The notes under the pieces: model-generated
The model's database searches: none
What the model was told of the DNA's origin: nothing
What the model saw: only the letters and a program-made list of their open reading frames with translations
Translations under genes and position numbers: made by a program
Shown: positions 9,557-50,953 of the stretch, piece by piece
How positions within the stretch are numbered: the first letter of the stretch is position 1
Layout of the letters: each line of letters begins with the position of its first letter
Assembly: GCA_903838055.1 (NCBI GenBank)
Contig: CAILWV010000003.1
Location: 1-64,000, forward strand
Direction: 5' to 3'
From: an uncultured Bacteroidota bacterium
GTDB taxonomy: Bacteria > Bacteroidota > Bacteroidia > Flavobacteriales > Flavobacteriaceae
DNA: 64,000 nt

Positions 9557-10468
9557 TTATTTCACAATTAATTTTTGACCTATTGATATTCCAGTATCTG
9601 AAATATTGTTTTTACGTTTCAATTCGTCCACTGAAATATTATATTTTTTTGAAATAGAATACAAGGTATCTCCTTTAATTACAAGGTGCAATTCTGAACT
9701 AGTCATTGTCGCAACTGTGGTAGTATCAATTGAATTTAAAGAAGTGGCTAAATATTCTTTACCTAGTGCTTCAGCATCATATTTTTGTAGTTGGTAACGT
9801 TCTATCAATCCTATTAACTTAGTTGGATAAGCTACATCTGTTGCATAGCCTGCATCTTTCAATCCTTTTGCCCAAGATTTATAATCCTCTTTATCCAATT
9901 TAAATAAACTTGAATACCTATCTCTAGAAGTTAAAAATAAGGAGTGATCTCTATAGGATTCTTTTGGTTCATTATATTTTCTAAAACATTCTTGTGCCGC
10001 ATCATCATCATAATTAATACTTGGACCTGTCCATTCTTTATGGCATTTAATTCCAAAATGATTATTGGCTTGAATACTTAATGGCCCTGTTCCGGCTCCT
10101 GATTCTAGAATTCCTTGCCCCAAAGTAATACTTGCAGGAATTCCAAATTCCAACATATCGTGCTTCGCAATTTCTTTATATTTTTCAATATATTCCAATA
10201 CCATTGCAGTGGTTACTTTTACTCTTGTTGTAGCAGCTAAAACTTCAGTAGAATTATTTGAATTAGCATTCTGAATTTCAGAAGTAGAATTGTTACTCTT
10301 AGAAGCTTGGCTTTTGTTTTCTTGATTAAGAGGTGTATTTTTCTTTACCGTTTTAGTCACAGTATTTGAAGATGTTCTAGTTCTATTCGAATTAGAAACT
10401 GCAGGTCGACTTGTACCACATGAAGTAGCCAAAATAATACTGCAACAAAAAACTATCTTTTTAATCAT
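9557..10468 (-). CDS. Lipoprotein with glucosaminidase domain and C-terminal LysM
   Basis: Lipobox [30 protein letters not shown]-terminal [28 protein letters not shown]. Confidence 0.88.
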
Positions 10469-24986: not shown

Positions 24987-26189
24987 CTATTCTCTTTCAA
25001 TAATTACCGCATAACCTTGTCCAACACCAATACACATGGTTACTAATGCATATCTTTTTTGCGTTAATTGCAATTCTAATGCAGCAGAATATAAAATTCT
25101 AGCGCCTGTTACTCCAAGTGGATGACCGATTGCAATGGCTCCACCATTTGGATTTATTCTTGAATCATTATCTTTTAATCCTAATTCTCTAATGCAAGCA
25201 ATACTTTGTGCTGCAAAAGCTTCATTAAGCTCTATAATATCTATTTGATCTAGAGTTAATCCTGCTTTTTCTAACGCTTTTTTTGATGCTTCAACAGGAC
25301 CAATACCCATTACTCTTGGCTCTACTCCTACAGCGGCTGAACTTACTATTCGCGCCAAAGGTTTCAAGTTATATTTTTGCACCGCTTCTGCAGAAGCAAT
25401 AATAGTTGCTGCAGCACCGTCATTTAACCCAGAAGAATTTCCGGCAGTTACGCTTCCATCTTTTTTGAATGCAGGGCGAAGTTTAGCCAATCCATCCATA
25501 GAAGTGGTTGGCTTTACAAATTCGTCTTTTGAAAAAAGTAAGGCATCCCCTTTTCGTTGCAGAATTTCAACAGTAACAATTTCTTTTGCCAATCTACCTG
25601 AAGATTGAGCTGCAGCTGCTTTTTGTTGGCTATGCAAAGCAAAAGCATCTTGATCTTCACGAGTAATATTATATTTTTCAACTAAATTTTCGGCGGTTTC
25701 ACCCATTGCATCCGTACCGTACATAGCATGCATTTTAGGATTTACAAAGCGCCAGCCAAAACTAGAGTCGTACATTTTAGAATCGGTTCCATAGGCAGAA
25801 GATGGTTTAGAAACAACTAATGGACCACGAGTCATATTCTCAACTCCACCAGCAATAAAAACATGTCCATCGCCAGCTTTTATTGCACGACTAGCGTGAA
25901 TAATTGCAGACAAACCAGAGCTACACAAGCGATTTACCGTTTCACCAGGAACTGTATAAGGCAATCCCGCTAATAATAAAGACATACGCGCCACATTTCT
26001 ATTATCATCACCGGCTTGATTAGCACATCCAAGAATTACATCATCGTAAGCATCCAATGGAATTGTTGGGTTTTTATCGGTCACCGATTTAATTACTAAA
26101 GCTCCTAAATCGTCAGCACGAACTGATGCTAGTGTTCCTTGGTAACTTCCAATTGGAGTTCGAACTCCGTCTATAATATATGCTTCCAT
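24987..26189 (-). CDS. paaJ: 3-oxoadipyl-CoA/acetyl-CoA acyltransferase (PaaJ/PcaF)
   Basis: Thiolase motifs VNRLCSSGLSAIIHASRAI, NPNGGAIAIGHPLGVTGARI, CIGVGQG; in the paa operon. Confidence 0.92.
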   Translation of the reverse strand: MEAYIIDGVRTPIGSYQGTLASVRADDLGALVIKSVTDKNPTIPLDAYDDVILGCANQAGDDNRNVARMSLLLAGLPYTVPGETVNRLCSSGLSAIIHASRAIKAGDGHVFIAGGVENMTRGPLVVSKPSSAYGTDSKMYDSSFGWRFVNPKMHAMYGTDAMGETAENLVEKYNITREDQDAFALHSQQKAAAAQSSGRLAKEIVTVEILQRKGDALLFSKDEFVKPTTSMDGLAKLRPAFKKDGSVTAGNSSGLNDGAAATIIASAEAVQKYNLKPLARIVSSAAVGVEPRVMGIGPVEASKKALEKAGLTLDQIDIIELNEAFAAQSIACIRELGLKDNDSRINPNGGAIAIGHPLGVTGARILYSAALELQLTQKRYALVTMCIGVGQGYAVIIERE

Positions 26190-26195
26190 TTCGAT

Positions 26196-26233
26196 AATTA
26201 TGAATTATTAGTTATAAATTATTAGTTATGAAC
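26196..26233. repeat. Terminal inverted repeat, paaJ-proximal side of the four-helix-bundle gene
   Basis: AATTATGAATTATTAGTTATAAATTATTAGTTATGAAC; inverted relative to 26584..26612, with an internal partial duplication. Confidence 0.8.
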
Positions 26234-26587
26234 TTGTATATTTTTCTTTGTTGTAATAATTATACTTTTAATTATTTTTAAAACTTCTGTTGTTTGTTTG
26301 TAGATTGGATTAAAATCTATCTCCTCAATATATTTTGTTGCATTTAATAATTCAAGCCAATATAATGATTCATCACATTCTTTTTGTGCTATAGCCAACT
26401 TATGAATAAAATCTAATTTACTTTGAGCATTTACAGCTTCTCTTACATTAGCTCCAACAGAAGTTATTGATCTTAAAAACTGTTTACTCATTACAAATTC
26501 CTTCCTTTCAGTTACTAAATATTTATAAAAATTAACCCCTGAAATTGCTAAATCAAAACTCTTAACTTTTATTATACTTTCACTCAT
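26222..26587 (-). CDS. Four helix bundle protein (23S rRNA intervening-sequence protein / Avd-like family)
   Basis: SKQFLRSITSVGANVREAVNAQSKLDFIHKLAIAQKECDESLYWLELL is the family hallmark; start and stop codons are embedded in the flanking inverted repeats. Confidence 0.93.
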   Translation of the reverse strand: MSESIIKVKSFDLAISGVNFYKYLVTERKEFVMSKQFLRSITSVGANVREAVNAQSKLDFIHKLAIAQKECDESLYWLELLNATKYIEEIDFNPIYKQTTEVLKIIKSIIITTKKNIQVHN

Positions 26588-26612
26588 AACTAATAATTAT
26601 TAATTCATAATT
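26584..26612. repeat. Terminal inverted repeat, paaI-proximal side of the four-helix-bundle gene
   Basis: TCATAACTAATAATTATTAATTCATAATT; reverse complement AATTATGAATTAATAATTATTAGTTATGA matches 26196..26233. Confidence 0.8.
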
Positions 26613-26614
26613 AA

Positions 26615-27019
26615 TCAATCCCATTCCTTTTGAGTGCGATACACCACGCCTTTAAATAGCGCTACCATCTCATCTCCTCTTTTTACTTCAATTATATTGA
26701 ATCCCAATTTGTTATTTACTTTTTCAATTACGGATTCGGCAACTAAATAATCGCCTTCGTTTACTGCTTCAATATGATTTATTGAAGTTTCAATTGAAAC
26801 CGCAAACTTTCCATGGGTATTTGCAGCAAATCCAAAAGCAGTATCTGCTAAAGAATATGTTATTCCGCCATGTGCTTTATTCATGCTGTTCAACATTTCT
26901 TTACGAACAGTCATAGCCACTTTGCAACGCCCAATTTCGCATTCTAAAATTTCGATACCAAGCCATTGGCTGTAGGCATCTTGAGAAAGCATTTTATATG
27001 GTATTTTTGTTCCTTCCAT
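26615..27019 (-). CDS. paaI: PaaI-type hotdog thioesterase
   Basis: LNSMNKAHGGITYSLADTAFGFAANTHGKFAVSIETSINHI. Confidence 0.9.
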   Translation of the reverse strand: MEGTKIPYKMLSQDAYSQWLGIEILECEIGRCKVAMTVRKEMLNSMNKAHGGITYSLADTAFGFAANTHGKFAVSIETSINHIEAVNEGDYLVAESVIEKVNNKLGFNIIEVKRGDEMVALFKGVVYRTQKEWD

Positions 27020-49201: not shown

Positions 49202-50953
49202 ATGAAACTTCTTTATTCCTATATAATTAAACACAAGATTTTGTTGTTTTTTGCACTACTTATGGCTGCAATCAACATTTGTTTCAGTTTATCAGATTCG
49301 ATTATTACAGGAAAATTAATGCAACATTGCGGAGTTGAAATAGGAAATTTCAAAGGCGATAAAATAGCATTTATTAAAGTCTTAAGTTTTTGGCTAGGAC
49401 TTTCGCTTGGTGCTGCAATGATTTCAAGAATTACAAAAAACTTTCAGGATTATTTCACAAATATTGTAATTCAAAGAACTGGCGCACAAATGTATACTGA
49501 TGGAATAAAAAAATCGTTAGACTTACCATTTGAAGATTTTGAAGACCAACGAAGTGGGGAAACTTTAAGCAAATTAACCAAAGTGCGTTCGGATTCAGAG
49601 AAGTTGATAACATTTTCAATTTCATTAATTTTTCAAACCGTAATAGGATTCATCTTTGTTATCATCTATGTATCCCGAATAGATTATAGAATATCATTAA
49701 TTTTTCTAATTACCGCACCAATAATTGCTTTAGTAAGTTCTTATTTGGGGAAAAAAATAAAAGTAGTTTCTAGAAAAATAGTCAATCAAACTAATGCTTT
49801 GGCAGGTTCAACAACAGAAAGTCTAAGAAACATTGAGCTAGTTAAAAGCTTAGGTTTAACCTATCAAGAAGAGAAGCGCTTGAATTTGAATACTTTCAAA
49901 ATTCTACAACTTGAATTGCAAAAAATTCGATTTATTAGAAGTTTAAGTTTTATTCAAGGAACTACGGTGCATTTTTTAAGAACTTCTGTAGTTTTTACTT
50001 TGTATTATTTCTTATTCGGAGGTAAAATTATTGTTGGTGACTTACTTACAATGGTGTTTTTTACTTTTTATATATTTGGTCCTTTGCAAGAATTGGGTAA
50101 TTTTATTATTGCACTTAATGAGACTAAAGTATCCATGGAAAATTTCAAAATTCTATTGAGCGCTCCAAAAGAATTCCGCCCTAAAAACCCAGAACATGTT
50201 GGCGCTATTCATTCCTTACTATTTTCAAATGTTAGTTTTCAACATAAAACTGCAAATTACAAGGCGGTTGACGATATTAATTTTGAAATAAAGCAAGGAG
50301 AAACTGTTGCTTTTGTTGGTCCATCGGGTGCTGGAAAAACTACTTTAGTAAAATTACTTGTTGGATTATATCCACCGGAACAAGGAAAGGTACTTTATAA
50401 CGGCATTGATTCAACTAAAATTGATTTATTAGATTTGAGAAAACAATTGGGATTTGTAACACAAGACGCGCAACTTTTTTCAGGAACGATAAGAGAAAAT
50501 TTATTGTTTGTTAAATCAACCGCTACCGATGAAGAACTTAATGAAGTATTAAAAAAAGCTAGTTGTGAAAATTTACTAAACCGTGCCGAAGATGGATTAA
50601 ACTCCACTATTGGTGAAGGCGGAATGAAAATTTCGGGAGGAGAAAAACAACGTTTGTCTATAGCGCGTGCCATCTTGCGAAATCCGAATTTGTTGATTTT
50701 TGACGAAGCAACATCGGCTCTAGATTCAATAACAGAAGAAGAAATTAATACTACCATCCGTAATATTTCCGATAGTAATCGGATTACCGTTTTGATTGCA
50801 CACCGATTATCTACAATCATGCATGCCGACAAAATATTTGTATTAGAGCAAGGGAAAATTATTGAGCAAGGGAAACACGACGATTTATTGTTAGAAAAAG
50901 GCTTGTATTATGCCATGTGGAGACAGCAAATTGGGGAACGAAAAAAAGTGTAA
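49202..50953 (+). CDS. ABC exporter, fused TMD-NBD (MsbA-like)
   Basis: Walker A VGPSGAGKTTLVK, signature ISGGEKQRLSIARAIL, Walker B LLIFDEATSALD. Confidence 0.95.
   Translation: MKLLYSYIIKHKILLFFALLMAAINICFSLSDSIITGKLMQHCGVEIGNFKGDKIAFIKVLSFWLGLSLGAAMISRITKNFQDYFTNIVIQRTGAQMYTDGIKKSLDLPFEDFEDQRSGETLSKLTKVRSDSEKLITFSISLIFQTVIGFIFVIIYVSRIDYRISLIFLITAPIIALVSSYLGKKIKVVSRKIVNQTNALAGSTTESLRNIELVKSLGLTYQEEKRLNLNTFKILQLELQKIRFIRSLSFIQGTTVHFLRTSVVFTLYYFLFGGKIIVGDLLTMVFFTFYIFGPLQELGNFIIALNETKVSMENFKILLSAPKEFRPKNPEHVGAIHSLLFSNVSFQHKTANYKAVDDINFEIKQGETVAFVGPSGAGKTTLVKLLVGLYPPEQGKVLYNGIDSTKIDLLDLRKQLGFVTQDAQLFSGTIRENLLFVKSTATDEELNEVLKKASCENLLNRAEDGLNSTIGEGGMKISGGEKQRLSIARAILRNPNLLIFDEATSALDSITEEEINTTIRNISDSNRITVLIAHRLSTIMHADKIFVLEQGKIIEQGKHDDLLLEKGLYYAMWRQQIGERKKV

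Follow-up and report, generated by a model that had tools for sequence, protein, structure and literature searches.

A PF05635 gene between paaI and paaJ is bracketed by inverted arrays

The window, the whole 64,000-nucleotide stretch of DNA analysed here, carries a short gene between the protein-coding genes paaI and paaJ, outside rRNA. A preliminary description took this gene and the inverted repeats around it for a possible mobile cassette. What are these repeats, and how are they tied to the gene? The features concerned are as follows.

26222..26587, minus strand: PF05635/TIGR02436 four-helix-bundle (S23/IVP) gene, 121 amino acids (profiles, fold, dN/dS)
26584..26618, minus strand: 5' arm, upstream of the gene (inverted repeat, shuffles, lag-7 periodicity)
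26197..26231, plus strand: 3' arm, downstream of the gene, five heptamers (inverted repeat, lag-7 periodicity)
26615..27019, minus strand: paaI, upstream neighbour (4HBT thioesterase domain)
24987..26189, minus strand: paaJ thiolase, downstream neighbour (Thiolase_N/C domains)

The 121-amino-acid product scored 86.2 bits against PF05635 (cut-off 33.8; Pfam profile search) and 96.1 bits against TIGR02436 (cut-off 24; NCBIfam profile search). Among the three species having the gene, dN/dS was 0.04-0.19; the gene is under purifying selection in these species. There were no Rfam matches in 25900-26900 and there is no transposase within the unit.

Imperfect inverted repeats of 32 nt (26195-26226 and 26582-26613; 84% complementary) surround the ORF. 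The arm-to-arm local alignment scored 22, compared with a mean of 9.7 and a maximum of 18 for shuffled sequences. Not one of 3000 shuffles reached 22, which rules out chance low complexity as the source of the arms. Each arm is a tandem array. Read outwards from the gene, the 5' arm comprises four clear heptamers (GTTATGA/ATTATTA/ATTAATA/ATTATGA; 26584-26611) and a degenerate fifth unit that runs into the paaI stop codon. The 3' arm, on the plus strand, reads ATTATGA ATTATTA GTTATAA ATTATTA GTTATGA. At a lag of 7 nt we counted 24/36 matches for the 5' arm (equalled in 0/500 shuffles) and 22/37 for the 3' arm (7/500). As described previously, the start codon (26585-26587) is inside the 5' arm and the stop codon (26222-26224) is inside the 3' arm. 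Gene and arrays take up all but a few bases of the 425-bp paaI-paaJ gap. The 'internal duplication' reported at one end, which was suggested as a possible scar or part of a recognised structure, is just two adjacent repeat units.

The product is a predicted homopentamer

The AlphaFold model of the window protein has four helices (pLDDT 94). Its best structural match was 2RLD (55% identity, TM 0.86), and 2GSC also matched. The 2RLD structure has five chains, 2GSC has chains A-E, and the S23p protein of X. campestris is a homopentameric toroid (PMC4990558). By analogy with these relatives, the window protein is predicted to be a homopentamer.

The model also resembles Avd (4DWL, TM 0.73), with which it shares the four-helix-bundle fold. 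This likeness, and a weak Avd profile match at one other locus (L001; 30 bits, cut-off 80), would fit an Avd-like accessory gene of a diversity-generating retroelement. Conversely, no Avd family matched the window protein, and RVT_1 matches were found in neither G000 (96% complete) nor G064 (94% complete). With no match to a reverse transcriptase in the host, a retroelement is disfavoured, and we regard this origin as barely credible.

Inverted arrays flank most members of the gene family

PF05635 is present in 119 of 121 genomes of the genus Flavobacterium and in 116 of 148 genomes of the phylum sample. Inverted flanks, defined by a score at least 6 above shuffles, were found at 84% of 82 family genes in the genus (a few of which show the window's own copy again) and at 2% of 297 background ORFs from one genome. 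They were also present at 18 of 28 genes (64%) from the phylum sample. A check suggested earlier was whether the window's ends recur around other four-helix genes; the general kind of flank does, but there is no fixed sequence. Instead, the repeat unit varies by gene lineage, and we refer to the variants as dialects. The window's own genome has four PF05635 copies with four different units. Along the protein tree there were 14 changes of dialect, compared with 43.9 when dialects were shuffled. This agreement is partly plain vertical descent because most members of one dialect occupy one common locus. A TGTATW clade that seemed to occupy four distinct loci proved to be an artefact of incomplete neighbours; it is mostly at one locus, with a second in G040. 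The family genes also share an orientation. Among 61 with two callable neighbours, 59 were co-directional with both and 2 with the upstream neighbour only, whereas the background was 276/500 (55%).

Genes of the same family lie between terminal inverted repeats in the 23S rRNA intervening sequences (IVSs) of Coxiella, Leptospira, Brucella and Xanthomonas. In Coxiella the IVS has a 28-bp terminal stem, is excised by RNase III and carries heptameric repeats before the S23p ORF (PMC4990558). These repeats are like those of the window and are a published hint of a gene-array association. Conversely, the window unit lies between protein-coding genes, its repeat unit varies by lineage, and ORF-less pairs are abundant. 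The Coxiella element nonetheless raises the possibility of an mRNA intervening sequence, whose arms would pair in the polycistronic transcript so that the loop bearing the gene is cut out by RNase III. The arrays would then be RNA stems, and mobility would be unnecessary. The predicted fold does pair the arms (0/100 shuffles fold equally well; z -3.5) and the gene is co-directional with the operon. Against this, mismatches between arms lacked a G-U bias (100 of G-U type vs 162 of A-C type), arm identity was only slightly greater within elements (0.693) than between them (0.662), and there are hundreds of gene-less array matches. Mismatch types and arm identity do not support RNA pairing as what chiefly constrains the arms. 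We consider an mRNA intervening sequence unlikely.

The unit is absent from the paaI-paaJ junction of most relatives

We compared 30 loci retrieved by PaaI, 29 of which had a readable paaI-paaJ junction. The unit of gene and arrays was found in 3 of the 29 genomes (L043-L045), all close (PaaI 97-100% identical). Most other junctions had a lone array ahead of paaJ or an ORF-less inverted pair of a different unit. At two of them (L059, L063) the gene-less array ahead of paaJ has a unit resembling the window's 3' arm. Directly upstream of paaI, L056, L057 and L058 carry a second PF05635 lineage, distant from the first, whose arrays are of the AGGTGTTAGG type. The paaI-paaJ spacer thus varies among relatives.

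Gene and repeats are not shared at this locus by all relatives, in line with the proposal of a mobile unit. The junction comparison that was suggested as a check confirmed that the gene is missing from most relatives but revealed neither a clean empty site nor a target duplication, since relatives carry other arrays or hairpins in this spacer. A search for empty sites under a looser array definition returned many conserved or possibly overlapping matches and was set aside as evidence. Another repeat, of ~100 bp (GAGCGAATGGCTCGGGCATTTTCAG...CAATCAGGGCT), occurs in the paaI-paaJ spacer of L046, L048-L051, L053, L054, L056, L057, L062 and L064.

Gene-less arrays are abundant and usually have five units

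The best-sampled dialect is described by the pattern CWRAGDTN x3. Ten of 61 genomes had 93-211 matches and most had few or none; these abundances are pattern matches, so a single array may be counted more than once. The reversed pattern, used as a control, gave 0-6 matches per strand. The CT form alone had 301 matches in one further genome. The window's own genome had 2 CWRAG matches.

The arrays have a fixed layout: a T-run, WRAG, four times DTNCWRAG and a T-run, which gives five WRAG cores spaced by 8 nt. Arrays with three or more strict cores numbered 420; of these, 252 had five units, 107 had four, 41 had three, 17 had six and none had seven. For the 167 facing gene-less pairs, five units were counted in 120/167 and 103/167 arms. 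Facing pairs (122) outnumbered back-to-back pairs (29). Pair identity was 0.670, compared with 0.671 expected for independent draws from the layout profile. Because non-core positions are saturated, the constant number of units is not accounted for by recent common copying alone. The five-unit mode is clear for the CWRAG dialect only. Other dialects gave 4-14 units by a general self-alignment method that overextends, and five units in every dialect are not established. ORF-less pairs lie between same-strand genes in 101 of 108 cases, many of which are orthologous sites counted repeatedly.

For the window's dialect, one ORF-less hairpin was seen in the window's own genome (L039; G000:C28 near 49646-49671). 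This inverted array, between one gene and an accD-like start, consists of AATTACGA x3, a short loop and an AATTCAT array. Its hairpin score was 17, compared with 11-15 in four shuffles. Elsewhere, the spacer of L211-L290 (near 6457-6797 in L216 coordinates) has other palindromic elements, TGTCATTTCGACGAAGGAGAAATC and CCAGCTTTAGCTGG/GGCTTTAGCCAAA, with facing arrays on either side, as though they were nested in the loop.

The REPIN/RAYT systems, or REPtrons (PMC3116915, PMC3733652), likewise combine many short inverted elements between genes with a related gene flanked by similar repeats. Array-rich genomes have the many elements expected of a REPIN-like system, in the CWRAG dialect; the window's own genome does not. 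The array system also differs in having no tyrosine transposase and in following a unit grammar instead of a fixed sequence. If Y1/RAYT transposase elements owned the arrays as their ends, the four-helix gene would be a passenger; mobilisation in trans, proposed previously, would have the same candidate enzyme. Y1_Tnp genes did occur in 11 of the 12 genomes searched. None of 20 Y1 loci had a CWRAG array, which rules out ownership at these loci, and G064 (94% complete) has the window's unit without a Y1 match. The Flavobacterium Y1 genes carry repeats other than the arrays, unlike the pairing in REPIN/RAYT systems. We judge Y1/RAYT ownership to be very unlikely, and trans mobilisation by this enzyme is unsupported for the same reasons. 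At L291-L310, many Flavobacterium Y1/RAYT genes are bordered by ordinary palindromic repeats (for example TCCCGTTAGGGA and GTTCCATCGGAAC), so that these genomes contain another repeat system, distinct from the arrays.

Arrays accompany the matching protein lineage

Genomes with at least 20 pattern matches were classed as array-rich. The matching protein lineage was present in all 13 of these and in 5 of the 48 others (Fisher p 1.3e-9, phylogeny uncorrected). Gene-bearing and array-bearing species cluster phylogenetically, so such statistics are not independent. The repeats are widespread, yet they are linked to the gene family.

These counts bear on a further explanation, in which the arrays are spacer sequence kept for mRNA stability, termination or translation initiation, and the gene settles there without acting on them. 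The arrays or hairpins of other dialects that fill the gene-less paaI-paaJ spacer in most relatives are consistent with this, as is the strong co-direction of the spacers. Conversely, dialect tracks protein lineage, the matching lineage is in every array-rich genome but in few array-poor ones, and a spacer function gives no obvious reason for the five-unit mode. Overall, retained spacer sequence is an improbable account of the arrays.

The best-sampled locus, here called locus A, was compared in 80 named species, with arrays counted per 21 kb. The gene was intact in 69, frameshifted in four and absent in seven. Species with the intact gene had a mean of 4.65 arrays (eight had zero), the four with a frameshift had 0, 0, 0 and 5, and the seven without the gene had zero. 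The relationship of gene state to array count is suggestive only, as array-poor species cluster by relatedness; L240 is the single contrast whose nearest relatives bear arrays. In L240, L245, L262 and L279 the gene appears frameshifted directly upstream of position 10000, and the flanking arrays are still recognisable. Both arms at locus A agree in CA/CT subtype, which tends to match that of arrays genome-wide (p=0.009). Homogenisation from arm to arm was unsupported, the self score being the same as the cross score with the nearest relative.

The gene-bearing unit at locus A is mostly vertically inherited. The mobile cassette proposed for the window stands in part. The unit is present at its junction in L043-L045 only and has no transposase inside, and ORF-less elements with ends of this kind abound wherever the matching gene lineage is found; frequent joint movement of the ORF with its ends is not borne out by a locus kept intact in 69 of 80 species.

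A model for the PF05635 protein and its arrays

Taken together, the data suggest that protein and arrays form a REPIN-like repeat system without a known enzyme. The reading that we favour, with a probability of about one half, is a widespread two-part system in which a PF05635 pentamer is matched to a cognate array made up of some five short, degenerate units, one copy of the system being in the window. Several points speak against it. The unit with the gene is as a rule passed on vertically, species with gene and arrays cluster phylogenetically, and at locus A arrays are missing from eight species with the gene as well as from the seven without it. Further, the five-unit mode is clear for one dialect only, the junctions showed no exact empty site or target duplication, and four species retain recognisable arrays around a frameshifted gene.

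Two inverted arrays, recognition sites in this model, bracket the gene, and some genomes have many gene-less pairs. Each pentamer may bind one array, as DNA or RNA, with one unit per subunit. The two facing arrays might then be joined by the protein or by hairpin formation. Array pairs could have spread, in the manner of REPINs or MITEs, into the spacers between co-directional genes, through putative host enzymes. Array architecture, inverted pairing, co-direction, the tie of dialect and abundance to the protein lineage, and the missing unit at this junction in relatives were observed; we infer the binding, the match of units to subunits and the movement. One unit per subunit is proposed because structures of the family are pentamers and the best-sampled dialect has five units. 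In the window, the 3' arm has the expected five heptamers and the 5' arm has four or five.

The proposed match is drawn by analogy with TRAP, a ring protein whose target repeats are as many as its subunits, with 11 subunits and 11 (G/U)AG RNA repeats (PMC4027176). There is no known kinship between the two proteins, and the arrays described here have five units of 7-10 nt. More tentatively, and at somewhat less than even odds, this may be a new class of repeat system, in which a pentameric non-enzymatic protein recognises five-unit arrays, facing pairs multiply and dialects change together with the protein. The components, an S23p ORF in an inverted-repeat element and REPIN-like repeats, are already known. 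We found no published account of the gene-array association, or of this combination, in the open-access PMC literature, preprints excluded.

Although described decades ago, the S23/IVP family has no established function; the arrays are a concrete candidate ligand. Five units for five subunits is a simple quantitative prediction. If true, the model would account for a large class of degenerate repeats in the intergenic DNA of Flavobacterium. It would also link rRNA intervening sequences, Avd-like proteins and REPIN-like elements.
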